Below are positions 7,414 through 63,073 of a stretch of DNA of 64,000 nucleotides, piece by piece; the first letter of the stretch is position 1; every line of letters starts with the position of its first letter. A program made the position numbers and the translations under genes. The stretch is from Methanococcoides sp. (GTDB lineage: Archaea; Halobacteriota; Methanosarcinia; Methanosarcinales; Methanosarcinaceae). Where the stretch lies: assembly GCA_021108275.1 (NCBI GenBank), contig JAIORD010000044.1:1-64000 (forward strand). The letters are read 5' to 3'. Below the pieces are notes generated by a model, which was not told where the DNA came from, did not search any database, and saw only the letters and a program-made list of their open reading frames with translations.

Positions 7414-7496
7414 TAATTAAGAACTAGCAATAATAAAATGCATTGATTCCTTCCAATAGGTGGAGTAAAATGCATTTAAATATAAATAAATCCCAC

Positions 7497-27071: not shown

Positions 27072-27485
27072 TCTTTCAAAATTACGATGCTATCATTGTA
27101 ATTGTTACTATTAAAGCTAAGGTTACATCTTCACAATTACAACCAATAATTTATTTTCTAAACTGGCTATTTCTATTTATAATTTGCTAACAAAATATCA
27201 TACAACATAATAATAGATGAAGCTATTGACTAAATTTCACCACTCAACAAGCGAAATAAGCCCATCACAGCAATAAAATAAGGGCTCATTTATTGCTTTT
27301 TATCGTCTTATTGTACATCGAGTCCATCTAAGAAGAAAATGAATACACACCATATAGCTATGCCGATACTTTATATCATCGAGCTATCATTGATTACTGC
27401 TTGTTGAAATATTATAAGGAAGGGTATGCTACCCGTGTTGTGCAGAAGATGCTTAGTTATTTGATAATTAAATAGAGGAAATAAC
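27072..27485. other. Left end of integrated element, no clear gene
   Basis: This 414-bp gap holds the left 14-bp att repeat (27105-27118). It also has a hairpin AGCAATAAA/TTTATTGCT (27269-27297) followed by a T run. Around 27395-27475 there is a short coding-like stretch (YYKEGYATRVVQKMLSYL) that lacks a start and may be a remnant. Confidence 0.5.
27105..27118 (+). repeat. Putative attL, 14-bp direct repeat
   Basis: TTACTATTAAAGCT, identical to 63060-63073. It lies 34 bp upstream of the tRNA-Arg 5' end, possibly overlapping its promoter region. Confidence 0.65.
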
Positions 27486-32200: not shown

Positions 32201-32382
32201 TCATCAGTAATTTTTAAATTTTGTAATACTTCAGTAAAATGCAATTTATTGTGATAATTTAGTCCATCTGGAATAGGTTTTAACAATGCACTAAATTCTT
32301 TCATATCTCTTAATCCAAACATTGAGGACATGTATTTATTCAGAATTAGATAATTCTGAAGTTTTCTCTGAACTTTGGCCAT
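29212..32382 (-). CDS. Type III-like restriction helicase subunit (Res)
   Basis: The 1056-residue SF2 helicase has Walker A WSATGSGKTLLMH (about residue 145), the DExH-type box IIFVDEGHKGHS, and the later motif VI region QLFGRGVRLKG. The C-terminus carries a nuclease-like region with FYPDFILWTI, then NFIDPKGL. It is probably the DNA-translocating and cleaving subunit paired with the methyltransferase encoded 3 bp upstream. Third gene of a tightly packed minus-strand operon: helicase-nuclease, Mod, Res. Confidence 0.87.
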   Translation of the reverse strand: MAKVQRKLQNYLILNKYMSSMFGLRDMKEFSALLKPIPDGLNYHNKLHFTEVLQNLKITDEFRQKLNLYDENIQEYLNHINQKRDPPIVLKYFQYMAILFTEIYLDKYYNEFNSLYSEFLTFVMALNKKENSKYPYPNKKAMQKLAFWSATGSGKTLLMHINFLQIQRYNNKKYDNFLLITPSEGLSTQHMDELVLSDIEHKKFEAQKTLEDWSLKNPLKVIEITKIKSEVSSQDGKTIPVEAFEDDNIIFVDEGHKGHSTDAQTWKNMRKELVGKNGFTFEYSATFGEIIDKDETFNEYASSIIFDYRYKYFYEDGFGKDYSILNLHNKEDYGDEYFTGSLLSLYEQKVYFKNYGRQIKPFNLENPLMIFVGSSVSGKAKESDVLQVVKFLARFVNEKKNFKELIQNILTDKSSLVDTNDQPVFATKFPYLRRLNKIDKIEIHEIYEDILKVLFHVKTSKTLQFVEIKNADGEIGLKFDSEYFGVINIGDTSSFMKLIDKEEEDYFFIAQKSNFEQSLFKKIEKKNSPVNFLIGSKKFIEGWNSYRVSAMGLLNIGKKEGSQIIQLFGRGVRLKGYENYLKRSSAPEFKNGMLADVKIPDYLELLETLNIFGLNANYMETFKQSLKEEGIGEYERLTLKIKPTMPVSALYVPRSTKDVSDFTKSIQITNFDKSIAKIKIDLSSKIDVLESREDIKQVDSSSPIKENTFSSELVDLFDMDYIYLELLKYKDLKKYTNLYFIKDDLSSVLYSPDKYSVLCKKEILQLNETDELQKIKKLQDYAIQLLKSYLDKLYNHEKYHWYQENLQYETVSQEDESLIPKEYVFTINSDADTLIKDIDKFTSDLTSFIRVNSEDGNIMYEEDISFKHGMSNIMDFFAMNVHLFKPLIYKNVKAKDLEFIKISPVNLVESERDFIKQLNLYLENDSKALGFDEIYLLRNPSRKGIGFFETKNFYPDFILWTIKGDEQTINFIDPKGLVRVDHHDEKIGLHKEIKHIEKDLKNKSKLNINLNSFILSRTNYSDLNWSESKDELMNKNILFLEDGADFLKQMFEKISS

Positions 32383-32385
32383 TGT

Positions 32386-35300
32386 TTATCCCCTGAACAT
32401 ATTTGTTTTAAAGATTTCATCTATTGATTTAGCATTCTTTATCAATGAGTTGCCATTGATAAGAATTTCATCATATTCTTCATTCAGAATATTGTTTTCA
32501 ATGAATTCTTTGTCTCTTACAGGTTCAAAACCATCTGTCCTATTTCTCCAGATTATAATAACAGCTTTGTCTTTTCTGTAACCTTTGACGATTATGTATA
32601 CTTCATTATCATCTAGTTTTCTTTGAATTGATTTAACGTCAATTCCAGCAATATAGTTGAATGTTTCAATCAAATCAACATTATGTTCCCTGAATTCATT
32701 ATTATCATATGTTTTGAGTTTATACTCAAAAGGACTATCTAATGCATCCAGATTAAGGAAAACATTGCTTCCTTTGCTTTCAAATTCAAGCATGTATTTA
32801 ATATTGTAATCTTTAGATTCTTTGGCCAAAGTGGTAGGTTCTTTGAAATCAATGTTGTTCAAAGAATCTTCATATTGCTCAAGTGTCTGATATTTGATAA
32901 TTTGTTTCTTGGAACCATTGTTATCTTGTGGTTTGCCATCTTTCCAATTATCAGAATAGATTACTTTGAGAATTCTTGGCTTTGTAACGGTTTCAAAGTA
33001 GTGACCCATTTCTACAAGGATAAATTTTCGGTTACCATTATCTTCTTTGTTTAACTTTAATACAGCATGACCAGTTGTGCCAGAACCTGCAAAATAATCT
33101 AAAATTATTGCATTTTCACTCTCAAACGTTGCAGAATCAATTGCAGTCATCGTAGTATAAACTGATTTTGGATATGAAAATAAATCCGAATTGCCAAATA
33201 TACTTGTTAACAAATTTGTACCTTGTGATGTTGCATTAAATTTGGTGTTGGACCAAATGCTATCGAGTAAACCTCTTGCTTTTTCATCATTATATAGCCG
33301 ATTAATAGTCATATTATCTGTGCATTGAAGTAAGCTATTTTTATGAGCTTCTATCGCACCTTCATAACTCAAAGTCCAAACTCTCTCAGAATCATCACTA
33401 CCAATTGGATAGATTCTTATATACCCTTCATCTGTAGAGTTAGTTGGGTATTTGCCTTGCGGTGGTTTTTCAAATGCAACAATCTCTCTATTATTTGGAT
33501 TGACCAATACCGCATAAAAACTATTTGGCCTTCCTGTACGGTAATTATTTTCACCGGTTCCCGCCCTCCTAAAGTTCCTCACTCTTATTCCATCTTCCTT
33601 TTCTTTTCCTCTTAAGATATCCTCTCCTTTTGGAATTAAGAAAATATTATACTCGTGAGTTCTCGTTACATTAGAACGACCAGTTCCAGAACCTGGGTAA
33701 TGGATAACAATGCTTTTCTGAACTTCATAGTTCGGTAGTGATAACTCTAGCAAAGGAGTTAATTTTCCAAGTTCAGTATCATCTATTGCGATACTAAAAA
33801 CTCCTTGTTCTTCTTCTAAAAACTGGATTGCGACCTTTAATCGATTTTCTATCAAAGATAACCAAGACGATTCTTTATATTCATTTTTATAAATAATTGG
33901 AGTTGCCTTTGTATTATATGGGGGGTCTATATAGCAACATTTAATTTTCTTTTCATATTTGTTGAGAAGTAAATTTAATGCGTGGAAATTATCCGAATTA
34001 ATGAGTATACCTGTAGTTTTGTCATCAAGATTATCAATCTCACTTAAGATTTGATATTTGAAATCCAAATCATAAAATTTCGTGTCAATAACAAGTGTTG
34101 GATTTTGTTTGAGAACTTCTATCTTCAGTCCTTCATCAGATTTTCCTGTTCCTGTAAGATTTCCTTTTACGTTATTTACTTCTACATCAATACCAAATGA
34201 ATAAAGTTGTTTCCATTCTTCAATCTGTTTTTCATTTTTAAGTATTTCAGGATAATACTTTTCATCAATATAATCTAGTGTAATACAATAATCAGTTGAA
34301 GTAACAAACTTCATCTTTTCCCACATTTTTTTCTGGAACTCTTCAATCTGAGCTAAAAATTCAATTATTTTCAGAGATATTTCTTTGAAAACTTTTATTT
34401 TTTTGAGATTGATATTTAAGTCTTCTTTTGAATCAATATCATCAATATGAAGAATTTCATTTTTGATATAGAAATCCAATTCTTGAGATAAGAATTTCTT
34501 CAGGCCTTTATGGATGAAATAATCGCTTGTGTTCTTTGTAGTATATTTATTTAGATGCCATTCAAGTTCTGATTTTTCAGACTTGTCTCCATCCATCTTA
34601 ATGTGTTTTTTCTGTAAATCTGCTAAACCATAAATACCGATTTTCTCATTGATTTGTTTTAAATTATACTGGTTTACTTCATCCTTCCCCAGTCTTTTCT
34701 TGCCGGAAAGGTCTTTAATTATTTCTTCCTCTTCACCAGTTAAACCTTTATATCCAAACTTTACATTGAGGTGTTTAGTCCTGCTATCATACTCTGCCTC
34801 ATTGAATATGAAAAATTTCTTCTCCGAATCTTTAATATTGTTTTTTTCAATATCAACTTCTTCACTAGTTACTTCAAAATCAACTTTAATTGCATTAGTC
34901 TTAAATGAATAATTATTAAAGTTTTCACCAGTTTTGATGTAATACTGGTCGTTATTTGCCCAATGCAGATAGACTTCTTCACCATTGTAAGGAATTGCAT
35001 ACTTTGCATCTTTAGAATATCTTCTTTTGGAAATGAAATCGCCCTTGTCATAATATCTTGAAAAGAAACTAATTATATCATCATAGATTTCTTCTTCGAT
35101 ATAATTTTCTTTGTCAACCAGATTCATTTCTTTTTCTTTTTCAAGATAAGATTGTACTTTTGGAACTTCTGCATACTTCTGTTTTGCTTCTAGAATTTCG
35201 CATCCAAAATCAGATTCAATCACTGTCTTCAATGCTTCTAGATTGGATTTTAATTCTGAATTATCTCCAACCGTTTTGATTTTTTCATTTATAATTTCAA

Positions 35301-35457
35301 AAAGGTCTTTGTTAATAAACTCAGATATTTCTTTTTTCTTGATGTTAATGATTCTGTATATTCCAAAATCAAGGTCATTGTTCTCGAATTGGAACAAATC
35401 CTTTAACAGTAATTTAAGCTTATCAGCACTAGTATCAATCAATTTTTCATCCACCAT
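32386..35457 (-). CDS. Type III-like DNA methyltransferase (Mod)
   Basis: From ATG 35457 the protein is 1023 residues, much larger than classical Mod (about 650). The N-terminal 450 residues form an extra helical region starting DKLKLLLKDLFQFENNDLDF. The catalytic motif CCYIDPPYNTKAT (DPPY) precedes the SAM-binding FAGSGTTGHAVLKLN, the beta-class order for N6-adenine or N4-cytosine methylation. A longer frame to 35577 overlaps the upstream helicase gene and is unlikely. Start and upstream stop are one base apart. It probably confers self-protection and target specificity. Confidence 0.88.
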   Translation of the reverse strand: MVDEKLIDTSADKLKLLLKDLFQFENNDLDFGIYRIINIKKKEISEFINKDLFEIINEKIKTVGDNSELKSNLEALKTVIESDFGCEILEAKQKYAEVPKVQSYLEKEKEMNLVDKENYIEEEIYDDIISFFSRYYDKGDFISKRRYSKDAKYAIPYNGEEVYLHWANNDQYYIKTGENFNNYSFKTNAIKVDFEVTSEEVDIEKNNIKDSEKKFFIFNEAEYDSRTKHLNVKFGYKGLTGEEEEIIKDLSGKKRLGKDEVNQYNLKQINEKIGIYGLADLQKKHIKMDGDKSEKSELEWHLNKYTTKNTSDYFIHKGLKKFLSQELDFYIKNEILHIDDIDSKEDLNINLKKIKVFKEISLKIIEFLAQIEEFQKKMWEKMKFVTSTDYCITLDYIDEKYYPEILKNEKQIEEWKQLYSFGIDVEVNNVKGNLTGTGKSDEGLKIEVLKQNPTLVIDTKFYDLDFKYQILSEIDNLDDKTTGILINSDNFHALNLLLNKYEKKIKCCYIDPPYNTKATPIIYKNEYKESSWLSLIENRLKVAIQFLEEEQGVFSIAIDDTELGKLTPLLELSLPNYEVQKSIVIHYPGSGTGRSNVTRTHEYNIFLIPKGEDILRGKEKEDGIRVRNFRRAGTGENNYRTGRPNSFYAVLVNPNNREIVAFEKPPQGKYPTNSTDEGYIRIYPIGSDDSERVWTLSYEGAIEAHKNSLLQCTDNMTINRLYNDEKARGLLDSIWSNTKFNATSQGTNLLTSIFGNSDLFSYPKSVYTTMTAIDSATFESENAIILDYFAGSGTTGHAVLKLNKEDNGNRKFILVEMGHYFETVTKPRILKVIYSDNWKDGKPQDNNGSKKQIIKYQTLEQYEDSLNNIDFKEPTTLAKESKDYNIKYMLEFESKGSNVFLNLDALDSPFEYKLKTYDNNEFREHNVDLIETFNYIAGIDVKSIQRKLDDNEVYIIVKGYRKDKAVIIIWRNRTDGFEPVRDKEFIENNILNEEYDEILINGNSLIKNAKSIDEIFKTNMFRG

Positions 35458-35458
35458 T

Positions 35459-38233
35459 TTAGTTACCCCCTTCAAGTCCATCACAAATATGGTAAAATTC
35501 ACATTTTCCAGTTTTATTATTACAAGAAGTTCCTTGCCAGTTTCTTCCAAAATCTTTATTATCAATTGATTCAGCAATTGAAGTTACCAAAGTCTTGGTT
35601 TTTTCAAGGTCTTCTTCTGTATTCATAAATCGTGTTCGTTCATTATCCTTGAATGTATAAGCACTGATGTTTTTAATTTCTTCATCATATTTATATTGAA
35701 GTGCAATATTATAAAGTCGCAGTTGAATATCCACATTCATTCTTCCAAGACCTTCTTTATATCTGGATTTGTAATCTATCAACTCAATTTCATTATTTTC
35801 GTTCTTGATAACTAAATCTGCCTGACCACTTATTAAAAGGTCTTTGTTAATGTACGAGAAGGGAAGTTCTATATCAAGAACTTCAGTCAAAAAGTTATCA
35901 GTCTTTTCATAGTAAGTCCATAAATCTGTGATGAGTTCATCACGCCATTTAGTTCGAGAATCATCATCTTTACAATATAGGTCAACTATTGAGATGATAT
36001 CTTGTATATCAATTTCTTTTCCCTCTTTGATGAGAACATGTAGTTTTTTAAGAGAATTATGAACAATTACACCGTATGCTTGATAGTAATCTGTTGGAGT
36101 CTGGAATCCAAGAAAATCCCTACAATAAAATCTAAAAGGGCAATCAATATATGCACTTACAGAAGAATAACTTAATTTCGTTTTACCCTTTATAGGCTCA
36201 TAATGGTCTTTATCTGTGAATTTTTTATTAAAATCGTTTAATTTAATAAAGTTACTCTGCCCAATTTCATCAATGAATTTAGATGGATGACTCCCAGGTC
36301 CATCAATCGTACTTATGGCCAACAGTTTTTGTGCTCTTGATACTCCAACATAAAATATTCTCCTTATTTCTTCCCCTCGATTGTAGTCATTTTTATCGAG
36401 CATTAATTCCTTTGGTATATCCATTATAATTGTTTCACGATTATTTATCGTATTATATCTCCTATTTGTGACACCTGCCATAATCACTACAGGAAATTCA
36501 AGACCTTTGGCTTGATGCACAGTCATTAGGTTTACTGCATTAATATTTTCAAAGGATGCAGCATCATCAATTTTGTTTTCTGGTATTGTCCCAATTTGAT
36601 AAAGTAGAGATTTGAACTGTTTAGAATGCGTATTTTCTTCGAATTTGTAGATAAGAGTTGAAAATTTGGCCAGATTCTTTATAGCCATATTTGCAGTTTC
36701 GTCTCTATCTTTTAGATATTTCTTGAATAATCTGTAATGGTAGCCAGTTGCGTCCATTATTTTATAAAACAGCTTTAATTGACTAATAGGATTTCTTGTT
36801 TGTTGAAATTTAAGATTCCTCAAAGCCATTAGTTTATCAGAATCTTCGTTGTCAATATTTAAGCGTTGTAATTCATCATAGTCAAAAGACTCAAGAAGAT
36901 TGTAAATATCAATTTTTGGATTTAATTTTGTAATTGTGTCTTCTTTCAAATCCAAAAATTTAGAATAAAGAATATTGTTGTCAAAATACTTTTCTTTCTG
37001 ATATTTGTTTGGAATATGTGAATTGATGTATACCATTAGTATTAACAAATCTTTAACTTCATCTTGTACTAAGAGTGAGCCATCTCCTTTTACTATATAT
37101 GTAATCTTTTCTTTTTCAAGTTCATCGACAATAGATGATGAATGAAATTTTACACTTTTGAAAAGTATGGCTATGTCTTCATATTTGATGTTATTATTCT
37201 TGACCACACTTTTTATGAATTGAACAATATTTTCAGCTTCAGACTGCTTTGAGTCTCCAGTTATGTATATTGGCTTTGAAAAAGTTGGATTATTTGTAAA
37301 TATGTTCTTTTTAAATGTTCTGTGAGGTTTCATAAAGTCGTCAAACATAGACACTATCTCTTTATTTGACCTGAAGTTCTCTTCCAATACCAATTTTTTT
37401 GCATTGGGATATCTGTCGAGGAATGTTCTAAAATTCTTGATTGATGCCCCTCGAAAACTGTACAAACTCTGGTCTTCATCACCCACAACAGTAATATTAA
37501 ATTTTGGTTCACTTATAAGCTTGAAAATAGCATCTTGGATTGGATTTGTATCTTGGTACTCATCAATTAGTATGTAGTCGTGAGAATCTCTTACAATCTG
37601 CAAAACGTCTGGACTTTGTTGAAGCAAATGATAGAATTCTCTTTGAAGAAGTGCAAAATCAAGCCTTGTATTATTTGGGTCAAGAATATTCCCCAGATAT
37701 ATCTGGTAACTTTTTGCAATTGCTTTTTTAAAACTATCCAGATTGTTTGTTTTGCAGTAGTTTATAAGTTTTACTGGGTCAACATCATTTTCAGTACATT
37801 TATTATAAAAGTTTATAAGCTCAGCAACTTTAATGTCCTTTGCATAATCTTTTAATCCATAATTCCAAAAATTCTTATTTACAAAGATAAACTGGTCTAA
37901 ATCATCCATTACTTCGAAAATATTACCAAAATTATGATATTCCGGAAAAGATTGAAGCATTTTTTGACAGAACGAATGAATTGTGGAAATTTGCATGTTT
38001 TCTACAGCATCACCTAAACTTTTACGTAATCTGTCTTTAAGTTCTTCTGCTGCTTTTATGGTAAATGTACTGACAATTATTCTATTAGGGTCATATCCTT
38101 CTTTAACGAGAAAAATTACTTTTTCTGTAAGAACTCTTGTTTTTCCAGTTCCAGGGCCTGCAATAATTAATAGTGGACTATCTACATACTTGATAGCTTC
38201 TTGTTGTTGTGATGTCAAAGAGAGACTATTCAT
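35459..38233 (-). CDS. UvrD/AddA-like helicase fused to Fe-S PD-(D/E)XK nuclease
   Basis: A 924-residue SF1 helicase-nuclease. Walker A is IIAGPGTGKTRV (residues 23-34). Other helicase motifs are ILIDEYQDTN, VVGDEDQSLYSFRGA, MTVHQAKGLEFP and FYVGVSRAQ. The C-terminal third is a RecB/AddB/Cas4-like nuclease with GQADLVIKN and IELIDYKSRYKEG. Its cysteines (CPFRFYC, then CNNKTGKC and YHIC) suggest a [4Fe-4S] cluster. It is the first gene of the operon with Mod and Res. Association of this nuclease-helicase with a type III-like pair suggests a three-component defence system (inference). Confidence 0.86.
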   Translation of the reverse strand: MNSLSLTSQQQEAIKYVDSPLLIIAGPGTGKTRVLTEKVIFLVKEGYDPNRIIVSTFTIKAAEELKDRLRKSLGDAVENMQISTIHSFCQKMLQSFPEYHNFGNIFEVMDDLDQFIFVNKNFWNYGLKDYAKDIKVAELINFYNKCTENDVDPVKLINYCKTNNLDSFKKAIAKSYQIYLGNILDPNNTRLDFALLQREFYHLLQQSPDVLQIVRDSHDYILIDEYQDTNPIQDAIFKLISEPKFNITVVGDEDQSLYSFRGASIKNFRTFLDRYPNAKKLVLEENFRSNKEIVSMFDDFMKPHRTFKKNIFTNNPTFSKPIYITGDSKQSEAENIVQFIKSVVKNNNIKYEDIAILFKSVKFHSSSIVDELEKEKITYIVKGDGSLLVQDEVKDLLILMVYINSHIPNKYQKEKYFDNNILYSKFLDLKEDTITKLNPKIDIYNLLESFDYDELQRLNIDNEDSDKLMALRNLKFQQTRNPISQLKLFYKIMDATGYHYRLFKKYLKDRDETANMAIKNLAKFSTLIYKFEENTHSKQFKSLLYQIGTIPENKIDDAASFENINAVNLMTVHQAKGLEFPVVIMAGVTNRRYNTINNRETIIMDIPKELMLDKNDYNRGEEIRRIFYVGVSRAQKLLAISTIDGPGSHPSKFIDEIGQSNFIKLNDFNKKFTDKDHYEPIKGKTKLSYSSVSAYIDCPFRFYCRDFLGFQTPTDYYQAYGVIVHNSLKKLHVLIKEGKEIDIQDIISIVDLYCKDDDSRTKWRDELITDLWTYYEKTDNFLTEVLDIELPFSYINKDLLISGQADLVIKNENNEIELIDYKSRYKEGLGRMNVDIQLRLYNIALQYKYDEEIKNISAYTFKDNERTRFMNTEEDLEKTKTLVTSIAESIDNKDFGRNWQGTSCNNKTGKCEFYHICDGLEGGN

Positions 38234-38982: not shown

Positions 38983-39870
38983 ATGAGCACAGATTGGGAA
39001 AATAAATTTAGATTATGGACAAAAAAACCAAGCGATACAGAAGAGGCAATGTGCGAAAATGCTGAAAGAATGATTCGGGATGCTATTAGGAATGATGATG
39101 AATTATCAAAAATAAACATCGAGATTTTCGCACAAGGCTCCTATTCTAATAATACAAATGTGAAACAAAATAGTGATGTCGATATATGCATTAGGTACAT
39201 GGATTCCTATTTTTGTGATTTTCCAAATGGAAAAAATAAAAGTGATTTTGGCTTTGTAGATTCTAAATATACGTTTTCTAATTTCAAAGATGATGTTGAA
39301 AGGGCACTAATTAATAAATTTGGAACAGCCGGAGTGACAAAAGGCAACAAAGCATTTGATGTTCATTCCAATACTTACAGGGTTGATGCCGATGTCGTAG
39401 CTTGCTTTGAACATAGAAGGTATAATGGTAATGGTCAAAACTATTTATCTGGAACAGAGTTTAGAAGTGAAGATGGAACCGAAATTATAAATTGGCCTAA
39501 ACAACATTATGAAAATGGAGTTCGTAAGAATACTGATACTAACAGAAGGTATAAAAAAGTAGTTCGAATTTTAAAAAGACTAAATGTGGATATGCAAGAC
39601 GATGGCATAGAAGTATCGCACAAAATACCTTCTTTTTTGATTGAATGTCTAATTTGGAATACTCCGAATCACATAATTACAAATACAAATTATGTTGATA
39701 CAATCAAGAACACTTTGGTATTTCTTTATCAAAACACAACAGAATTTGAAAAATGCAGCGAATGGAGAGAAGTCAGTGAGTTGAAATATCTATTTAGAAG
39801 TTCCCAACCTTGGAACTTTGAAGATGTTAATAAATTTACAGTCGGAGCTTGGAATTATATCGGGTATTGA
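38983..39870 (+). CDS. CBASS CD-NTase (cGAS/DncV-like nucleotidyltransferase)
   Basis: The 295-residue protein has the nucleotidyltransferase core FAQGSYSNNTNVKQNSDVDI followed by CIRY, giving the GS motif and the two-Asp DVD pair near residues 60-65. The third acid is in YRVDADVVAC around residue 130. This matches CD-NTases, which make cyclic di- or trinucleotides on phage infection. The next gene is a Cap15-like effector, coupled by a TGATG overlap, completing a minimal type I CBASS. The nucleotide product cannot be read from sequence. AAGGAG lies six bases before the ATG. Confidence 0.85.
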   Translation: MSTDWENKFRLWTKKPSDTEEAMCENAERMIRDAIRNDDELSKINIEIFAQGSYSNNTNVKQNSDVDICIRYMDSYFCDFPNGKNKSDFGFVDSKYTFSNFKDDVERALINKFGTAGVTKGNKAFDVHSNTYRVDADVVACFEHRRYNGNGQNYLSGTEFRSEDGTEIINWPKQHYENGVRKNTDTNRRYKKVVRILKRLNVDMQDDGIEVSHKIPSFLIECLIWNTPNHIITNTNYVDTIKNTLVFLYQNTTEFEKCSEWREVSELKYLFRSSQPWNFEDVNKFTVGAWNYIGY

Positions 39871-40472
39871 TGATTATGGAAAAATATAATTTAAAAAATT
39901 ATGCTTCGTTATCTATAGCTTTCGCCCTTATTACTTGGATTCTTCTAATATTGTATTCTGAAGGTTCATTAGAAATTACAAAAAACGCTTTATTTCAAAT
40001 TCCCAAAGTTGTAACAATCAATGTAGTATTGTGGACAATATTCATAAAATGGTTATGGAAATTTAGTTTATTTAGGAATTGGCTTGTTCCATTTCCTAAT
40101 TTATCAGGCAATTGGTCAGGGAAAGTTGTTCCAAATAGCATAAATCCTGCAACCAATGAAGTTTATAATCCAGTTGATATTGATGTTAAAATAAAACAGA
40201 CACTTTTAAGCATCCACATTAAGGTTACCAGTAATGAAATGGAAAGTAATAGTTATTCTGCTTCATTTATTGTTAATAATGAAATCTCTGAAAAAAGACT
40301 ATGTTATTCATATTTGAGTAAACCAAAATCAAACATAAGAAATAGGAGCCCCATTCACGATGGAACTACCCTTTTAAGTGTGGTAGGCAAAGATGAAAAC
40401 GATTTGGAAGGAGAATATTGGACAAATCGGAACTCAACAGGAGAAATTTATTTGTTCAAATTGCATTATTAA
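39870..40472 (+). CDS. Cap15-like CBASS effector (two-TM plus beta-barrel)
   Basis: The start ATG overlaps the stop of the CD-NTase (TGATG), giving 200 residues. Two membrane helices occupy about residues 15-33 and 45-65. A soluble beta-rich domain follows, beginning PFPNLSGNWSGKVVPNS, characteristic of the Cap15/SMODS-associated beta-barrel. Known Cap15 proteins bind cyclic nucleotide, oligomerise in the membrane and kill or arrest the infected cell. Here it would be activated by the adjacent nucleotidyltransferase. Family assignment is from motif and context. Confidence 0.82.
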   Translation: MIMEKYNLKNYASLSIAFALITWILLILYSEGSLEITKNALFQIPKVVTINVVLWTIFIKWLWKFSLFRNWLVPFPNLSGNWSGKVVPNSINPATNEVYNPVDIDVKIKQTLLSIHIKVTSNEMESNSYSASFIVNNEISEKRLCYSYLSKPKSNIRNRSPIHDGTTLLSVVGKDENDLEGEYWTNRNSTGEIYLFKLHY

Positions 40473-40517: not shown

Positions 40518-41150
40518 TTATTTTTCTACCCATTTTCCATTTTCATACACGTAACCATACTCTATCAATCTATGAGTTATAGTCGAAGTTGTAACTTCAA
40601 AGAATTTTCCACAAGCATTTGCTGACAATCCTTTTCCAACAAGTTCTTCAAGCTTCTTTTTTGGAATATCTTTTCTTGGTCGATGGCACACTACACCCCT
40701 TTTCTCCGCAGCCTTTCGCCCAGCCGTCATTCTTTCATTAATTATTGAACGTTCAAATTCTGCAAAGGAAGCCATAATCTGCAATGTGAGTTTACCCATA
40801 GCAGATGACGTATCGATTGGCTGACCAGTAGCTGCAAATGATACACTGTATGATTCCAATTTCTCAACATTGACAAGACAGTCGATTATAGACCTGGCAA
40901 ATCGGTCAATTTTAGTAACTAGCAAAATGTCAAATTTACCTTCCTTTGCATCTCGCATCATATTTTGAAATGCAGGGCGTTCTGTGTTTTTTCCACTGAA
41001 ACCAAAATCGACATAATCTTCATGAACGACCCAACCTTTTGATTGACAATAATTTCGGAGTTCTTGTCTTTGCAATTGTATCGAATCCTGCTGATTGTCT
41101 GTCGAAGTTCTAATGTAAAGCCCAGCTTTTTTTATAATATTATTTTTCAT
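40518..41150 (-). CDS. Small serine recombinase (resolvase/invertase)
   Basis: The 210-residue protein has an N-terminal resolvase domain. It starts with LYIRTSTDNQQDSIQLQRQE (nucleophile Ser16), then DFGFSGKNTERPAFQNMM, KIDRFARS and GKLTLQIMASFAEFERSI. A C-terminal helix-turn-helix follows (about residues 160-200). Such enzymes resolve plasmid multimers or invert short DNA. A/T palindromes lie on both sides of the gene, but no res site is clear. It may maintain the circular form of the element. Confidence 0.9.
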   Translation of the reverse strand: MKNNIIKKAGLYIRTSTDNQQDSIQLQRQELRNYCQSKGWVVHEDYVDFGFSGKNTERPAFQNMMRDAKEGKFDILLVTKIDRFARSIIDCLVNVEKLESYSVSFAATGQPIDTSSAMGKLTLQIMASFAEFERSIINERMTAGRKAAEKRGVVCHRPRKDIPKKKLEELVGKGLSANACGKFFEVTTSTITHRLIEYGYVYENGKWVEK

Positions 41151-41614: not shown

Positions 41615-43768
41615 TTAGCTTACCTGTACCACTCCAAACCTTTCTTGTTCTTCTTGAATCACACTATTCATCCATGTCTTCTCACTCATTTTTTTATTTT
41701 CCTCGGCTACAACAGACTCATGTGCGAAGTTATCAAATATATCCTGCTTCATGCTAAGTAAATCCATAATTCTCTCATCGATGCTATTCTCAACGAGTAA
41801 TCGGTGTACAACTACATTATGTATCTGGCCCATTCGGTAAGCTCTTGAAATAGCTTGATTCTCAATGGATGGCTTGATTTGAGGTTCACAAAATACAACC
41901 ACACTCGCTGCCTGAATATTAAGCCCCACACCACCGGCTATAACTTGGCATATTAACACTGTTCCTGGGGCAGCCTTTGTAAACTCATCAATTATTTCCT
42001 GTCTTCTTTGTGATGAAATACTTCCTGTAATCGGCTCCATGCATTGTTCACCAAGTAGCGTACAAACCTTTCCAATCACTTCTCTAAAATACGAAAATAT
42101 CACTATTTTCCGATTGTTCATCTTTGCATCTTCGCAAATTTCCAGCAAACGATTTGCTTTAGTAGACGATTTCACATCAGTTATATTCCATGATAGCTGT
42201 CTCATTGCCATAAAGTTACCTAAGAAAACCGACTCACGATAGGCATCTATTTCCTGCTTATTAAACCTACACCATTCCTCTTTTTCGACCAATTCTGGTA
42301 GTTCCGTTAATACATCCTCCCGAATTCTTCTTAGATAAACCGGTGCTACTTTTTCTCTAAAATGTGGTGCATTCAATATATGCCCCATTCCATAGATTTC
42401 TGTAGCTATCTTAGGTTGCAAACACTTTACTAAAAAATGCATTTCTTCTACTCGATTTTCAAGTGGTGTGCCCGTCATGAACAATGTGCTTTCAGAAATC
42501 TTCGACAGTTCAAGCAAGGACTGCGTTCGAATAGCATAAGGATTCTTTACGTAATGTGCTTCATCTGCAACGAGCATATCTATTTTTAAGTCCTTAGGCA
42601 TATCCAGTTTACTAATGGTTCCATATGTAGTTACTGCAATACCACCATCATCTACCCACATACTAAAAGTATTATCACGGTCCTTACCATGCACATTAAA
42701 GACGTTAAGTGTACTATGCTGAACTACCTCACGTGACCAATTAATAAGTACACTGGTTGGACAAACTACTACAAAGTGCGTCATTCCCTTTGCCTTTAAA
42801 TTTGCCATCGCAGCAATGGACTGGACAGTCTTTCCCAAGCCCATTTCATCACCCAAAAGCACATTTTTCTGGCATAATATATACTTAGTTCCAAATAATT
42901 GATAACCCCTCAGTGTAGTTTTCATCAGGCTTAAGTCTAAAGGATACGCTTCCACCATTTCCACCAGACTATCTGACAATCCACCATGTGTAACGCCTTT
43001 ATCGAGCTTACTACCAGCAATCGATTCAAGCATCGCATAATAAAGGGCAGAATTAGCCTCAAAGTCTGTCCAACTTGAATGCGTACTATCTATTACAATT
43101 TGGGTAAATTCAGAATTTATAACATCCGCACTTGCTTTTAAATCACCTGATAGCAACACTTCCAAATCACTTAAGCAGGCCAATGCCTTATCTTTCTTAT
43201 TCCTAAATGAAAACATCCAACGCAGACGACTTTGAGCTATTTTTGCATTACGTGCTTTTTCATTTATAGAGCTATGATTCTCATCGTACAGGCGATGAGA
43301 ATCTACCCTTATAGAACTACTTTTATGCAAGATGTAGATAAATTGAACAAGGTTTGATGCATTGGACGTTCGATTTTCGGGGTCAATCCTCAAACGTACA
43401 GTGCGCTCCACATTGTTGTAAATACTATTTGCAGCATCTCTGATTTTAGAAGCAGTTTGATTACCAATACCATTAATGGCAATCAATCTGCCATAAGGCA
43501 TATCCAAAACCTGCTGAATATTATGGATGCCAGCCGATTTTAAAAGTGAAACACGAATTCCGTTTTTATTAGCATTGGTTTGCTCAATATCAATATTTTT
43601 AAGCGTCGTAGAAATGGTCTCATGACGCATTGCTTCTGCGAAATTTCTTACTTCTTGCTCGTATTTACTTTCGTCGTCAATGATTTGCTTTAACTTATTA
43701 TCTATGGAATGAATTTGTGATAGAATCTCTGAGGCATGCTTAAAATCATGCTTTTGTGAATTAGACAT
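41615..43768 (-). CDS. SNF2-family helicase with HhH motif
   Basis: A 717-residue SF2 translocase of the SNF2/Rad54 type. About residues 90-115 hold a helix-hairpin-helix (LIAINGIGNQTASKIRDAAN). Then come LRGYQLFGTKYIL, Walker A LLGDEMGLGKTVQS, DEAH in LVADEAHYVKNP, GTPLENR, and the C-terminal lobe with AGGVGLNIQAASVV and ISRAYRMGQIHNVVVHRLL. Such proteins remodel protein-DNA complexes and are frequent in defence islands. Its immediate neighbours (TPR protein, recombinase) do not define a known system. Confidence 0.9.
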   Translation of the reverse strand: MSNSQKHDFKHASEILSQIHSIDNKLKQIIDDESKYEQEVRNFAEAMRHETISTTLKNIDIEQTNANKNGIRVSLLKSAGIHNIQQVLDMPYGRLIAINGIGNQTASKIRDAANSIYNNVERTVRLRIDPENRTSNASNLVQFIYILHKSSSIRVDSHRLYDENHSSINEKARNAKIAQSRLRWMFSFRNKKDKALACLSDLEVLLSGDLKASADVINSEFTQIVIDSTHSSWTDFEANSALYYAMLESIAGSKLDKGVTHGGLSDSLVEMVEAYPLDLSLMKTTLRGYQLFGTKYILCQKNVLLGDEMGLGKTVQSIAAMANLKAKGMTHFVVVCPTSVLINWSREVVQHSTLNVFNVHGKDRDNTFSMWVDDGGIAVTTYGTISKLDMPKDLKIDMLVADEAHYVKNPYAIRTQSLLELSKISESTLFMTGTPLENRVEEMHFLVKCLQPKIATEIYGMGHILNAPHFREKVAPVYLRRIREDVLTELPELVEKEEWCRFNKQEIDAYRESVFLGNFMAMRQLSWNITDVKSSTKANRLLEICEDAKMNNRKIVIFSYFREVIGKVCTLLGEQCMEPITGSISSQRRQEIIDEFTKAAPGTVLICQVIAGGVGLNIQAASVVVFCEPQIKPSIENQAISRAYRMGQIHNVVVHRLLVENSIDERIMDLLSMKQDIFDNFAHESVVAEENKKMSEKTWMNSVIQEEQERFGVVQVS

Positions 43769-52077: not shown

Positions 52078-52581
52078 TCATTCCCTTCTAAGATGTTCAA
52101 GTATCTGCAATGTTCTGAAAAATGGATTTCCAGTATCCTTTTTTTCATTTTTTGCAATTGCCCTTAGTTCATCAATACGTCTTGCATATTCTGCATTGTA
52201 GATACATTCTAATCCATCATTTTCAAGGTTTTCAAATTCAGTTGTCATGCGACCATTAGGGACAACGGGTGACCAAAACATGAATCTCTTATTCGGAAAA
52301 TTCTTAAGATATTTTTCAGCATAACTTTTCTGCCTTGTGTACTTGTTTTTAATTTTATTAATTGTATCATTATAATTTGAACCATAGTTTGGTCCGTCTA
52401 GATGAGTAGTAACCTCACACATAAAGGCAGTTCCATCAGAGAACTTCAATCCCAATACATCAAATTCACTAAGTCCTTCCATTCCACCTGATTGTGGCTT
52501 TACGTTATATCCAACAAAGTCACATTTTTCTATGATTTGAAGGTACGCACCAACAATATATTCGCCAACTTGTGTACCCAT
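52078..52581 (-). CDS. Putative restriction-endonuclease-like protein
   Basis: 167 residues. The arrangement GMEGLSEFDVLGLKF, then GTAFMCEVTTHLDG, resembles a PD-(D/E)XK core (E, D, then E-x-T in place of E-x-K, so the Lys is not obvious). LKNFPNKRFMFWSPVV follows. A second, partial copy of its 3' end lies at 47964-48051. Identification as a nuclease is tentative. Confidence 0.6.
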   Translation of the reverse strand: MGTQVGEYIVGAYLQIIEKCDFVGYNVKPQSGGMEGLSEFDVLGLKFSDGTAFMCEVTTHLDGPNYGSNYNDTINKIKNKYTRQKSYAEKYLKNFPNKRFMFWSPVVPNGRMTTEFENLENDGLECIYNAEYARRIDELRAIAKNEKKDTGNPFFRTLQILEHLRRE

Positions 52582-52636: not shown

Positions 52637-53281
52637 TTAATGCATAGCAGTTTGATGACAATTAACTCCATTTTGAGAACTAAACATTTTATCGCAAATT
52701 TCACATTTAAATTTTTTAGGAGCCTTTTTTCTTTTTTTAGGCTTTTCTTCTTTATCATTTTTTTCAGCATTTTGTCTCCTTTGTTCAGTCGTAGAATCGA
52801 TATTATCCCATAAATCTGGTTTTAGTTCAAATGATTTACAAACAGCTTTAGCTATGACTCTTGTTTTTTTTAATGTACATACTTCAGAATCAAAATTCGT
52901 GTAATAAGAACAACGATTACAACTATAGGTGCGTTTATTGATGTTAGATTCAATTTGTCGAATTCCATTTGTGTACAAGCCTTTACTTAGATTATATTTT
53001 AATACACCATAAGGAATGTTTTTCATTTTGCTATAAACTGTATTTGGAGCAGGTGGTTCCCAATCGTCATAAATAGGATTTTCTGATACATCAATACCCC
53101 TTGATATTGGTTTATCGATATTATTTTTCTTTTTTTGAGAACGACTAGTAGCTTCTTCAACGTTTTTCTTTGGCTTTGAATTATCCCTAACAACCTTTTG
53201 AAGTTGAAGTAAACTATGACATTTTTTACAAAATAAATTTGTATCGGGATATGTAACCTCACATTTATTGCACATTTTCAT
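52637..53281 (-). CDS. Zinc-ribbon plus C2H2 zinc-finger protein
   Basis: 214 residues. The N-terminus is a zinc ribbon (CNKCEVTYPDTNLFCKKC). A middle cysteine group has CNRCSYY, EVCTLKK and AVCKSFE. The C-terminus is a single C2H2 finger, KFKCEICDKMFSSQNGVNCH ending TAMH (C-x2-C-x12-H-x4-H). A basic linker precedes the finger (KKRKKAPKKFK). It is divergent from the gene with twelve C2H2 fingers and shares the same N-terminal ribbon style, so the two are probably related and may bind the shared intergenic DNA. Confidence 0.78.
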   Translation of the reverse strand: MKMCNKCEVTYPDTNLFCKKCHSLLQLQKVVRDNSKPKKNVEEATSRSQKKKNNIDKPISRGIDVSENPIYDDWEPPAPNTVYSKMKNIPYGVLKYNLSKGLYTNGIRQIESNINKRTYSCNRCSYYTNFDSEVCTLKKTRVIAKAVCKSFELKPDLWDNIDSTTEQRRQNAEKNDKEEKPKKRKKAPKKFKCEICDKMFSSQNGVNCHQTAMH

Positions 53282-53455: not shown

Positions 53456-54679
53456 ATGTTAATGTGTAGAAGTTGTGGGAAACCTGTCGGAGATAATGGA
53501 TATTGTAGGGATTGCATGACTTATGAATACGTCAAGGAAGTAAAAGACGAAGAAGAACTTGGTTTAGTTAAACCCACATCATCATCATCTCATAAACCCC
53601 CAATGCCATCAATTCATGGGGAAAATGAAGAAAAGCATATAGTATTTTCTTCAGAAAGTGAAGATGTTATTTCATATACTTGTAAATATTGTGGGAAGAT
53701 TTTCCAATCAAAAAATAAATTGAAACGGCATAGTGAAAAAACACATTTCATATGCAAATATTGTGGGAAGATTTTCCAATTAAAGCTTCTGTTGGAAGAA
53801 CATATTAAAAACATACATATTACATGCCAATATTGTGGAGAATACTTCAAATCAATAAATAGTTTGGAAAAGCATCTTAAAAACGTACATTACTATTGCA
53901 AACATTGTGGTGAAAAGTTCCAATCAAAAAATATATTGAAGGAGCATATTAAAGATTCACATATCGTATGCAAATATTGTGATGAGGAGTTCTCTTCTGA
54001 AATTCTTTTAGAACAGCATATTAAAGACGTACACACTCTCAAATGTAAATATTGTGATAAGATTTTCCAATCAAAAAATAGTTTGGAAAAGCATCTTAAA
54101 AACTCTCATATTTGCAAATATTGTAAAGAAAATTTCCCTTCCGAAATTCTTTTGAAGGAGCATATTAAAGATTCACATATCGTATGCAAATATTGTGATG
54201 AGGAGTTCTCTTCTGAAATTCTTTTAGAACAGCATATTAAAGACGTACACACTCTCAAATGTAAATATTGTGATAAGATTTTCCAATCAAAAAATAATTT
54301 GGAAAAGCATATTAAAAACTCCCATACTTGCAAATTTTGTGATGAAAAATTCTCATCAAGCGATATTGTAAGGCAGCATATTAAAAACACACATATTTGC
54401 AAATATTGTGGTAGGAGAGTGCTCTCTAAAATTGATTTGGAGCATCATATCAAAGAATCACATACTTGTAAATGCAAACATTGTGGTAAGATTTTCCTAT
54501 CAATAAAAAGCTTGAAGAAGCATATTAAAAACGTACATAACAATAAGCAGACAAAAAATTCAAAACCAAGTGTTTCAAAGCCACATGGTATGAAAAAGGA
54601 ATCCAATGATATACAATTAAGAGAAGCTAATAGAAATATTGATGAACAATTTTCAAAGAATATGATGAACAAAAAGTAA
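53456..54679 (+). CDS. Tandem twelve-finger C2H2 zinc-finger protein
   Basis: 407 residues. An N-terminal zinc ribbon (CRSCGKPVGDNGYCRDC) and a linker are followed by twelve C2H2 fingers (about residues 72-360). Each follows C-x2-C-x12-H-x4-H, for example CKYCGKIFQSKNKLKRH then SEKTH. Linkers between fingers are only one to four residues, unlike the eukaryotic TGEKP linker. A 216-bp unit (three fingers) is recently duplicated. Finger residues vary at the helix positions that normally read DNA (QSKNKLKR, SSEILLEQ, SSSDIVRQ). Tandem arrays this long are almost unknown in prokaryotes. Probable DNA- or RNA-binding regulator or specificity factor (inference). Confidence 0.88.
   Translation: MLMCRSCGKPVGDNGYCRDCMTYEYVKEVKDEEELGLVKPTSSSSHKPPMPSIHGENEEKHIVFSSESEDVISYTCKYCGKIFQSKNKLKRHSEKTHFICKYCGKIFQLKLLLEEHIKNIHITCQYCGEYFKSINSLEKHLKNVHYYCKHCGEKFQSKNILKEHIKDSHIVCKYCDEEFSSEILLEQHIKDVHTLKCKYCDKIFQSKNSLEKHLKNSHICKYCKENFPSEILLKEHIKDSHIVCKYCDEEFSSEILLEQHIKDVHTLKCKYCDKIFQSKNNLEKHIKNSHTCKFCDEKFSSSDIVRQHIKNTHICKYCGRRVLSKIDLEHHIKESHTCKCKHCGKIFLSIKSLKKHIKNVHNNKQTKNSKPSVSKPHGMKKESNDIQLREANRNIDEQFSKNMMNKK
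53936..54296 (+). repeat. 216-bp tandem duplication of three fingers
   Basis: Bases 53936-54080 are repeated exactly at 54152-54296 (145 bp identical, period 216 bp, 72 codons). This extends the finger array by three units and implies recent recombination within the gene. Confidence 0.92.
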
Positions 54680-54942
54680 CAATTCTTGTCGAAATTAAAA
54701 TCTGTAGTCTTGATGAAGATTTGATTAAGAAAGTTCATTTGGGATGTAAAATAATCAAATCAAACAGAGATGGCATACGGATACAAAAATGGATTCAAGG
54801 AAAGATAAGTTTCAAAGACGATGATATGCCGAAATTTTATCAAAATGGGAACACTTTATCATGCAATTCCATAACTGTAGATGATAATAATAAAAAATCA
54901 GGAACTCTTATTGTAGAAGAAATAAAAAGAGGATGGGGTTGA
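54655..54942 (+). CDS. Unknown reading frame overlapping zinc-finger gene end
   Basis: An open frame continues from inside the 3' end of the finger gene, in another frame, through TILVEIKICSLDEDLIKKV and ITVDDNNKKSGTLIVEEIKR to TGA. No good start codon is visible before the internal ATG at 54817. It may be a C-terminal domain separated from the finger gene by a frameshift, or a small gene with a rare start codon. Family unknown. Confidence 0.45.
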   Translation, partial: KEYDEQKVTILVEIKICSLDEDLIKKVHLGCKIIKSNRDGIRIQKWIQGKISFKDDDMPKFYQNGNTLSCNSITVDDNNKKSGTLIVEEIKRGWG

Positions 54943-55070: not shown

Positions 55071-56180
55071 TCATGATATCTCAAGCTCTTTCATAGTCAA
55101 TTCCTCATATTCGTGCTCGAATTCATAAGATGCTATGGAATTGAATAAAGGACAGTTTATGTGTTTGTGTGAATAACAGGCAAGGAGTTTTTTTTCAAAA
55201 TCCTCGGTTTTATCCATTTCCATTAATTTATAAGAGATTTGCAATGTGCAATTAGAGAAATTTTCTTTAAAGGATTTATTGCACTTAAATTTCCGATGCG
55301 CTACCCTTAAACTCGAAACACCATTTTCATGCGATTTATACGAAGCATAACCATTATTGCCATATCGTCTACGTAGGTTATCTGACTTTCCAATATAGAC
55401 TATACCAAATTCATCAATAGTTGTTGGATGTCGAATATTAACACATTCTTTATTTTCAGTTACCAGCCTTATTTTATATACACATGATTTTTTCGTCAAT
55501 GCTTTTCTAAATTTGCCATATGATTCTTCACTATCAAATTTTATATCTATCCACTCACTCCACTCTTTGTTAATATCTGCATCCAAGAAATCAGCAATGT
55601 ATCCCCTATGAAAAAATGTTCCCTCTCCCCAAGTAAAAATCTTAGAATCGATTCCATGTCTGCTAATTTCTGCAGCCATTTGAACATGCACAAGATGACA
55701 GAGATTAATTCCATTAAATATGTGGAATCCACTTTCATAAACTTCCTCTGCAATATCCACATAATTTAATGGCTGGTCAGCACGTACTAAAATTTGGTAT
55801 ATCAAATTGATTAACGTCTCATCAGGACTAAAGTTAATATGACTACTCATGGCAATAGGATTTATGGCATAAAAATCAGCATCTACAACGTAGATTTTAG
55901 AGCCTATACCTAGATTTAATTCACTAATGATTTTTTCTTCAATAATGTCAATTGCTATGTTCCACAATAAATTTCGATTCAATCTCCATTGCCACAACTC
56001 TTCATTATAATAAATATCAAATATTTCTGATATGTGAAGTGGTTGATTGTATTTAATCATTATTTGACACAGAGAATCAATTGATATTTTTTGAAATATT
56101 TCTCCCTTAATGAAATTCAAATTTTCATAAGAGGGTTTTACATTATCAAAATTGTTGTTCTCAAATTTCTCATTTTTCAA
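55071..56180 (-). CDS. HARE-HTH plus GIY-YIG nuclease
   Basis: I choose the TTG start at 56180 because AGGAGGTG lies seven bases upstream; an ATG frame to 56267 is possible but less likely. The protein has about 369 residues. Two HARE-HTH-like wHTH segments come first: SLCQIMIKYNQPLHISEIFD, then LIYQILVRADQPLNYVDIAE with a TWGEGTFFHRG end. The C-terminal GIY-YIG domain has FGIVYIGKSDNLRRRYGNNG. HARE-HTH domains occur in proteins that sense modified DNA, so this may be a modification-dependent nuclease (inference). Confidence 0.75.
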   Translation of the reverse strand: MKNEKFENNNFDNVKPSYENLNFIKGEIFQKISIDSLCQIMIKYNQPLHISEIFDIYYNEELWQWRLNRNLLWNIAIDIIEEKIISELNLGIGSKIYVVDADFYAINPIAMSSHINFSPDETLINLIYQILVRADQPLNYVDIAEEVYESGFHIFNGINLCHLVHVQMAAEISRHGIDSKIFTWGEGTFFHRGYIADFLDADINKEWSEWIDIKFDSEESYGKFRKALTKKSCVYKIRLVTENKECVNIRHPTTIDEFGIVYIGKSDNLRRRYGNNGYASYKSHENGVSSLRVAHRKFKCNKSFKENFSNCTLQISYKLMEMDKTEDFEKKLLACYSHKHINCPLFNSIASYEFEHEYEELTMKELEIS

Positions 56181-56205
56181 GTTACCACCTCCTAAAATCA
56201 AATAA

Positions 56206-56459
56206 TCAATATTCTCTTCCAGAATCAGTAACGTGCTTTTCCCACTCTTTTTTACTGATGATAGCACTTGGATACTTGCGAGTCAGCACTTCAAAATCAG
56301 ATTTATTCAATTTCCTTTGACCTATTTCTGTGAAAAGCAATGACTCCAATTCAGGATGCAAGGTGATACATGTCCTCCTACGTCACAGAATTGACATCCC
56401 TCATCAGAATTGCTAAAATTATATGAACACCGTGCAAATCTTATAAGCATCTCTTCCAT
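56206..56459 (-). pseudogene. Frameshifted small gene in HARE-HTH operon
   Basis: From ATG 56459 (directly after the RHH gene stop) the frame reads MEEMLIRFARCSYNFSNSDE then GCQFCDVGG. A one-base shift then continues as LHPELESLLFTEIGQRKLNK, KYPSAIISKKEWEKHVTDSG and REY before TGA. If the frame were intact this would be an about 85-residue protein with a CxxC. Either a real mutation or a sequencing error. Confidence 0.55.
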
Positions 56460-61637: not shown

Positions 61638-62963
61638 TTAAACTTGTTGCACTTGACGTTCTGCTTCTAAAATATCAAGACGCCCTTTGTAGCCATTTAG
61701 TATCCCTTGGTATGTAACTACAAGTTTACTCATGTTGGACATATCCACATGCATGGAGTTTACTTTGTCTATCTCTTGTCTTAACAATAGTTCATTATCA
61801 TCTTTGACCTTTTCTATTTCTTCAATTTGCTTTTCCAAAGCCGTGTAATTATCATCTTTTATTGTAATGGTCTGTGTATTCTCAAAGGTGAACGCATTAA
61901 GATAGGTCATGTAAAGCTTTTTGGCAGCTGCTGTAGTAGGAAAAAAGTATGTTTTCTTATTAATATCAATTTTTTTGCCACATAGATAGTCCTTAAAGAT
62001 TTCATTACAGCCTGCCGATAGTAATTTAGTAGAAAAATATTTTCTAAATGAATGACTATGGAACTTACAATATGTGTTCTTTTCAGGATTGAATCCACAT
62101 TTTATTGAAAGGCTTTTCATGGACTTGATGAAGGCATTTTCATCCAATGCTCTGATACTATCATCGAGAGTTTCTAAATATTTACTACTAATTTGTTCAT
62201 TTACAAAAAGAAAATCATCATCACTATTGACTTTGCGTTTATTGTGCCAATCCTGTTGAATATGTTTTTTACTTGATGTTCCGTAACCATTGCGATAATT
62301 CAGATATTGTCTTATAGCCCTTGTTGCTTCAGGTGATAAGAATGTTTCAAAAGGTATATCGGTTTTCTTTCTGTTAAGGGTCAAAGTAGTGATATTATTT
62401 TCATCAATATCTTTTGTTGCTTGCCCCACACTTAATTTAAGAATGTCACTGATAGCTAATCCACTGGATGTTCCAATATATATTACAGTTTTTTGTGTTA
62501 GATTAGCATTTGCCAATGCAATTTCCAATTCTTCCTTTTCAGGAACTCCAATATTTCCAGCCTTTCCAGATGATTTTATTGGCTTGATTGATGTTGGAAT
62601 TGCAATATCATGTGATTTATAGAACCCATTGATAACAGAAACTTGTTGTTTCACAGATGATTGTGCTAATGATTTTTGTTTAGAACCATCGGGATATGTA
62701 CCACCCTTTAATAAAAAATCCTGATATAATAGCAAATTTACTTTAATCGACCTATCCCGCATTGGAACACATTCTTCTTCAGCACCTGCTTCTTTGATTA
62801 ATTCGGTTGGTGACTTCTCAGTGAATCGCACATAAGAGTGCATAATGCATAAGTGTGTTTTAGTTGTAGCATCAGATTTTGCAACGTTGAGAAGCCAGAG
62901 TTTTACTTTCGTATCATTATAAAGCGTTTTTAAATTTTCACTAATCTTGAATTGTCTCTTCAT
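61638..62963 (-). CDS. int: Tyrosine integrase
   Basis: The 441-residue site-specific recombinase has a SAM-like core-binding domain (about residues 70-125). The catalytic part has LNRKKTDIPF (Lys), HSHSFRKYFSTKL (His304, Arg307), CGKK (His/Trp position is Lys) and TYFFPT (Tyr339). The first catalytic Arg is not evident: the usual GLR block reads SSGLAISDIL. A coiled coil occupies about residues 365-440. It lies about 100 bp inside the right att repeat, as expected for the element's integrase. Catalysis may be weakened or the family divergent. Confidence 0.85.
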   Translation of the reverse strand: MKRQFKISENLKTLYNDTKVKLWLLNVAKSDATTKTHLCIMHSYVRFTEKSPTELIKEAGAEEECVPMRDRSIKVNLLLYQDFLLKGGTYPDGSKQKSLAQSSVKQQVSVINGFYKSHDIAIPTSIKPIKSSGKAGNIGVPEKEELEIALANANLTQKTVIYIGTSSGLAISDILKLSVGQATKDIDENNITTLTLNRKKTDIPFETFLSPEATRAIRQYLNYRNGYGTSSKKHIQQDWHNKRKVNSDDDFLFVNEQISSKYLETLDDSIRALDENAFIKSMKSLSIKCGFNPEKNTYCKFHSHSFRKYFSTKLLSAGCNEIFKDYLCGKKIDINKKTYFFPTTAAAKKLYMTYLNAFTFENTQTITIKDDNYTALEKQIEEIEKVKDDNELLLRQEIDKVNSMHVDMSNMSKLVVTYQGILNGYKGRLDILEAERQVQQV

Positions 62964-63059: not shown

Positions 63060-63073
63060 TTACTATTAAAGCT
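63060..63073 (+). repeat. Putative attR, 14-bp direct repeat
   Basis: TTACTATTAAAGCT, same orientation as 27105-27118. The flanking CTAACCTAATG forms an inverted match with AAGGTTAC beside attL (TAACCT/AGGTTA), as in a rebuilt attP. Confidence 0.65.

Follow-up and report, generated by a model that had tools for sequence, protein, structure and literature searches.

Long arrays of C2H2 zinc fingers are treated as a eukaryotic trait, and eukaryotic DNA-binding arrays are built with a 5-residue TGEKP linker and a 28-residue repeat. In these arrays the TGEKP linkers are critical for DNA binding and affinity (PMC8084297), and C2H2 arrays usually expand by two to four fingers at once (PMC1553488). 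Among the C2H2 proteins of archaea and archaeal viruses, about 74% have one finger and about 20% have two; the AFV1p06 family comprises short proteins with a single C2H2-like finger and a conserved downstream extension (PMC3541406). The Ros/MucR proteins have a single finger with a 9-residue spacer within a larger fold (PMC9779718).

The window analysed here (a stretch of 64,000 nt from a Methanococcoides genome, G000) contains an ORF whose product, as it stands, is a 407-aa protein with an N-terminal zinc ribbon followed by a long C2H2 array. The gene has the following features:

53456–54679, + strand: finger-protein ORF, 407 aa, with a stop that appears to result from a frameshift (see below)
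53465–53515, + strand: N-terminal zinc ribbon CRSC-x9-CRDC (residues 4–20), invariant in 5/5 close copies
53681–54538, + strand: twelve-finger C2H2 array (motif pattern, Pfam)
53896–54111, + strand: 216-nt three-finger unit, first copy (self-comparison)
54112–54327, + strand: 216-nt three-finger unit, second copy (self-comparison)
54646–54657, + strand: site of a one-base deletion, CAATTTTCAAAG in the window versus CAATTTTTCAGAG in the own-genome paralogue (G000:C8) and in G002
54658–54942, + strand: displaced C-terminal beta-rich domain in another frame (EYDEQKVTILVE...TLIVEEIKRGWG; comparison with relatives)

Twelve in-frame units of the form C-x2-C-x12-H-x4-H, starting at residues 76, 100, 124, 148, 172, 197, 220, 244, 269, 292, 315 and 340, span residues 76–361 of the protein. 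This confirmed the claim of an earlier note, made from the sequence alone, that twelve such units follow each other: Pfam zf-C2H2 matched 12 stretches (E 7.8e-42), and a chance origin of the motifs was rejected because of this match and because at most one such motif appeared in any of 2000 codon shuffles of the ORF. The fingers conform to the classical C2H2 type (PF00096: C-x2-4-C-x12-H-x3-5-H with a Phe and Leu core), with zinc ligands in all twelve window fingers, the core Phe in 39/40 and the core Leu in 38/40 family fingers. An AlphaFold2 model of a 7-finger orthologue gave regular beta-beta-alpha fingers (pLDDT about 66–87). The linkers from the last His to the next Cys are 2, 2, 2, 2, 3, 1, 2, 3, 1, 1 and 3 residues long, that is 1–3 residues and not 1–4 as claimed, with a repeat period of 23–25 residues. 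The array carries a net charge of +21, individual fingers ranging from +6 to −4, and is net basic in all five close copies. Against the survey figures cited above, this array is unusual for archaea; within a limited body of searchable literature, archaeal arrays of this kind did not turn up in any description.

Similar to the eukaryotic Krüppel/TFIIIA-type arrays (PRDM9, ZNF568, CTCF), the window array has tandem fingers with C-x2-C-x12-H spacing and a Phe/Leu core, and the eukaryotic arrays likewise grow by duplicating several fingers at once; the best PDB sequence matches of the window protein were eukaryotic poly-C2H2 arrays. It differs from them in lacking TGEKP, in its 23–25-residue period and in a Ser that is near-fixed at helix position −1, so that the label “eukaryote-style” is not supported as regards the linkers (no TGEKP, period 24 versus 28). 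By Foldseek, single fingers resembled those of CTCF and ZNF568, while the whole model superposed poorly (TM at most about 0.3), perhaps for no other reason than flexibility. The AFV1p06 family and haloarchaeal two-finger proteins of 54 aa have the same finger type, the latter also with the same near-zero linker, but they have one or two fingers and no ribbon, compared to 3–12 fingers in the window family; at 407 aa and 12 fingers, the window protein falls outside the AFV1p06 family. It also falls outside Ros/MucR, which are prokaryotic C2H2 proteins too, as it has twelve fingers that are all x12; Ros-like x9 fingers do appear in arrays of another genome, G478. There, x12 fingers alternate with C-x2-C-x9-H-x4-H fingers of Ros/MucR spacer length (L110:5269–6222 and 6553–7644; L112:6175–6855). 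WP_013195734 from the extrachromosomal pMETEV01 of Methanohalobium evestigatum combines an N-terminal ribbon with C2H2 fingers and is 31% identical to the window protein, but has three widely spaced fingers and no C-terminal beta domain. GIY-YIG homing endonucleases of Staphylococcus phages also carry tandem C2H2 fingers in a mobile-element protein; these fingers are few and part of a nuclease, whereas the window protein has no catalytic domain. On a conjugative plasmid of Salmonella enterica serovar Irumu (CP074271.1; L085:3004–3786), an annotated C2H2 protein has six Krüppel-like fingers with TGERP/TGQRP linkers and is much nearer to the eukaryotic arrays than the window protein.

Growth of the array, as proposed in the earlier note, was visible both as internal duplication and as a finger number ranging from 3 to 12 across the family. 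The two 216-nt units have 200/216 bases in common (93%), with a longest exact run of 145 nt (53936–54080 = 54152–54296), so that the duplication described as exact is present but exact only over this run. Fingers 5 and 8 are the sole identical pair and fingers 6 and 9 agree at 20/22 residues, which makes a recent three-finger duplication clear. The recognition helices, earlier described as varied, are so only in part: position −1 is Ser in 11/12 window fingers (36/40 across the family), and two helix types recur. Positions 2 and 3 are hydrophobic in many family fingers (Ile/Leu in 18/40 and Leu/Ile in 23/40, respectively), and position 6 is polar and varied. The family therefore departs at −1, 2 and 3 from the polar, variable −1, 2, 3 and 6 of eukaryote-type arrays. 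With Ser near-fixed at −1, Ile/Leu common at 2 and 3, and near-zero linkers, base-by-base reading by all twelve fingers seems unlikely.

Between two 7-finger orthologues, 11 array residues differ, one of them at a base-contact helix position. The dN/dS was about 0.25–0.6 for the finger protein and 0.7 for the array alone (few changes), compared to 0.03–0.05 for the neighbouring nuclease. Judged by these rates, the finger protein evolves much faster than the nuclease next to it, with no detectable diversifying selection on the helices; positive selection on the recognition helices was not seen in the one pair of arrays that could be aligned finger by finger. The idea of a variable specificity module thus finds no support at the level of residue evolution (11 differences, one at a base contact; dN/dS < 1).

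Compared to four relatives, the window gene has a 1-nt deletion near 54651, where it reads T4 and two relatives, the own-genome paralogue and G002, read T5. The ORF end at 54679 is therefore not the natural gene end, and the native protein is about 490 aa long. Close relatives end in a conserved domain (YDEQKVTIL...RIQKW.QGRI...TLIV..IK.GW) that is confined to one genus and that, in the window, is encoded beside the array but out of frame. Modelled alone by AlphaFold2, it gave a beta-rich fold (pLDDT 76.7, pTM 0.68) without a match in Pfam, NCBIfam, PDB sequences, PDB folds or viral folds, and no homologue was present on the viral contigs searched. A search of 186 genomes of the order gave no further copy, apart from one distant match in G018 that was taken as spurious as its gene reads as leucyl-tRNA synthetase. 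The deletion is either real or a sequencing error; as the displaced domain contains no further stop, any true deletion would be recent, and the window copy could function in truncated form or have suffered recent damage. A programmed −1 frameshift was considered and set aside, as inspection gave no canonical slippery heptamer and the relatives are in frame, which makes a deletion the simpler explanation. The finger genes of G005 (L030:9096–9098) and G008 (L032:5959–5961) share the position of an in-frame TAG (SSFNPIT*D), past which the conserved domain carries on; because PylS is present in 11/11 genomes of the genus, this TAG is probably read as pyrrolysine.

Within the window genus, the finger protein was found in 4/11 genomes, and the comparison of finger number that the earlier note had suggested gave 3 to 12 fingers: G000 has two copies (12 and 7 fingers), G002 has 7, G005 has 11 and G008 has 3. 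These five close copies have the ribbon and the C-terminal domain in common, and a family fragment that consists of the ribbon alone is located at G000:C4:44554. Similar to its relatives, the window protein has the N-terminal ribbon C..C...(Y/F)CxxC and then tandem fingers. Related ribbon-plus-finger proteins occur in other Methanosarcinaceae genera, namely on plasmid pMETEV01 of Methanohalobium evestigatum and in G351, G034 and G478, the last with four arrays of 8–11 fingers each. One of the G478 array genes (L111:7486–11459; G478:C2) lies 26–41 bp downstream of the gene of an 858-aa TPR protein, and its product has a 60% identical relative in G034. A more distant array, in G466 from another family of the order, has no defence genes beside it. 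With a profile built from the G478/G034 arrays, no match was obtained outside the window genus in a sample of 393 phylum genomes; a three-finger profile detected long contiguous arrays in this sample in the window genus only, the next relatives being the haloarchaeal two-finger proteins described above. Array matches on viral contigs were short nuclease-linked fingers or unrelated, and a scan of further genome contigs gave one weak 31% match unsupported by the finger scan. On the basis of these protein comparisons, we regard the family as a sparse accessory family of the Methanosarcinales, defined by a ribbon, 3–12 C2H2 fingers, linkers of 0–4 residues and a variable C-terminal part.

The placement of the window gene on a mobile element held up, as it lies inside a probable integrated element with the following features:

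27105–63073: probable integrated element, 36 kb, with 14-bp repeats TTACTATTAAAGCT at 27105–27118 and 63060–63073, beside tRNA-Ile
29212–35577: type III restriction-modification genes (res, mod), element cargo
38983–40472: CBASS-like pair of an oligonucleotide cyclase (SMODS) and a Cap15 two-TM effector, element cargo
40518–41150: resolvase gene, after the CBASS pair
41615–43768: DrmD/DpdE-like helicase, element cargo
52637–53281, − strand: divergent neighbour, 214 aa, N-terminal zinc ribbon and one C-terminal C2H2 finger (weak Pfam matches)
55071–56267, − strand: convergent neighbour, 398 aa, HARE-HTH and GIY-YIG nuclease-like domain (weak Pfam; HARE-HTH just under the cut-off)
61638–62963, − strand: integrase, inside the element at one end (gene content)

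The element has a GC content of about 30–37% compared to 38–46% in the host part, and the stretch 29212–38233 contains, next to res and mod, a UvrD helicase fused to a PD-(D/E)XK nuclease. A clean empty site was not found, the tRNA-Ile site being occupied in both G002 and G009; its flanks are separated by 20 kb in G002 but by 1.7 kb in G009, and such differing insert lengths are as expected of an integration hot spot. Downstream of the ribbon-finger neighbour, a 167-aa protein (52078–52581) contains, by eye, what may be a PD-(D/E)XK-like motif and had no family match.

Relatives of the window gene recur beside restriction-type genes. In G002 and G008, a BglII-family nuclease gene precedes the finger gene on the same strand at a distance of 67 and 82 bp, respectively, and in G005 the nuclease is three genes away. 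This nuclease, which retains the D-x8-E-V-Q segment common with BstYI (DF.KD..IEVQFG), is present in 3/11 genomes of the genus, all three of which have the finger gene (chance 0.024). It is absent from the window genome, and a universal BglII-like partner was rejected for this reason. The own-genome paralogue lies 0.4 kb from an Mrr nuclease gene, and a second pair of ribbon-finger genes in G002 adjoins a type I restriction gene. In G478, two 10–11-finger ribbon proteins are encoded 31 bp downstream of DUF499, DUF3780, DUF1156-methylase and PLD-helicase genes on the same strand, upstream of MkoA-like helicase and McrBC genes. This DUF499/DUF3780/methylase/PLD-helicase set corresponds to Type-2 BREX-related defence (PMC12839542), an account in which a text search did not find the term C2H2. 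A third array of G478 shares 87% identity with the first and is located in an island that also encodes a BrxHI helicase. The window locus differs from the G478 operon in that neither DUF499 nor the rest of the set (DUF3780, methylase, PLD-helicase) was found among the element proteins scanned. Genes of the family travel in defence islands and integrated elements; as such islands are nuclease-dense, closeness to restriction genes may be incidental. The earlier note had mentioned neither the ribbon and the C-terminal domain nor the frameshift, and had missed that such arrays recur next to defence genes of the restriction type.

Our preferred reading, to which we assign a probability of roughly 0.4, is that the window protein binds nucleic acid and serves restriction-type defence in an accessory or regulatory role. 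Gene context supports such an association: besides the architecture, the family and the duplication, what was observed is the location in islands and a recurrent proximity to restriction-type genes. Basic fingers would bind nucleic acid, probably DNA, and acidic or hydrophobic-helix fingers would pack on each other or on a partner protein. The ribbon or the C-terminal domain might tie the protein to an adjacent restriction-type enzyme, its putative partner, which the protein could help to position, regulate or restrain, and finger number would shift as one finger or several are duplicated in tandem. Several points count against it: the near-fixed Ser at −1 and frequent Ile/Leu at 2 and 3, which would be atypical of base-reading fingers, the lack of TGEKP, the lack of a universal partner (no BglII-like gene in the window genome), the G466 array away from defence genes, and the frameshift of the window copy.

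An alternative explanation is a stand-alone DNA-binding regulator or silencer that, similar to Ros/MucR, binds the AT-rich DNA of elements and keeps genes silent, either those of its own element or those of competing ones. The element is AT-rich, the finger gene occupies a separate, divergent position in the window, MucR1 has been described as a regulator tied to AT-rich foreign genes (PMC9779718) and an archaeal virus C2H2 protein binds DNA (PMC3541406). However, Ros fold and spacing differ from the window protein, a conserved basic reading surface on the helices exists in a subset of fingers at most, and operon positions behind nuclease or methylase genes better fit a partner, which leaves this explanation unlikely. 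The recurrent placement beside nuclease genes, together with acidic fingers bearing E-I-L-L-E helices (net −4), hydrophobic 2/3 positions and near-zero linkers that would pack the fingers together, would also suit a protein–protein scaffold or inhibitor, in which the majority of the fingers contact a partner protein, for example the neighbouring nuclease, instead of nucleic acid. As the whole array is basic in 5/5 close copies and the window genome has no BglII-like partner, we consider such a role distinctly unlikely. That the window copy is decaying cargo, either a broken relic or an ordinary copy with an assembly error, would account for the one-base deletion in a T run and for the ribbon-only fragment elsewhere in the genome; it is very doubtful given that zinc ligands are kept in 12/12 fingers and core residues in nearly all, that the displaced domain is free of further stops and that dN/dS is below 1 among relatives. 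Binding of RNA, for example as a sensor of viral or double-stranded RNA, is suggested by matches to the double-stranded RNA-binding model zf-C2H2_jaz (Pfam, E 4e-30) and by RNase III-like genes near two loci (L030, by eye; L112, Pfam). The zf-C2H2_jaz model overlaps other C2H2 models, so that its match does not single out RNA binding, and most of the neighbouring systems are directed at DNA; this is the least probable of the explanations weighed here.

What is new compared to the known one- and two-finger archaeal C2H2 proteins is that archaeal C2H2 proteins have expanded into long short-linker arrays that are accessory to Methanosarcinales defence islands. With 3–12 contiguous fingers, the family in these methanogens allows the origin of poly-finger arrays, and their role before or apart from chromatin, to be studied in prokaryotes. 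It also becomes a testable question whether a zinc-finger array serves an antiviral operon as its recognition or control subunit, and the most interesting testable point is the G478 operon rather than the frameshifted window copy. In the broadest version, which we regard as a long shot, a methanogen lineage would have developed poly-zinc-finger proteins of its own that give restriction-type antiviral systems (BREX-related operons, BglII-like nucleases) an addressable subunit for binding nucleic acid, and tandem duplication would tune both the number of fingers and the helix type. If true, this would be a prokaryotic parallel to the animal poly-C2H2 proteins that police mobile elements.
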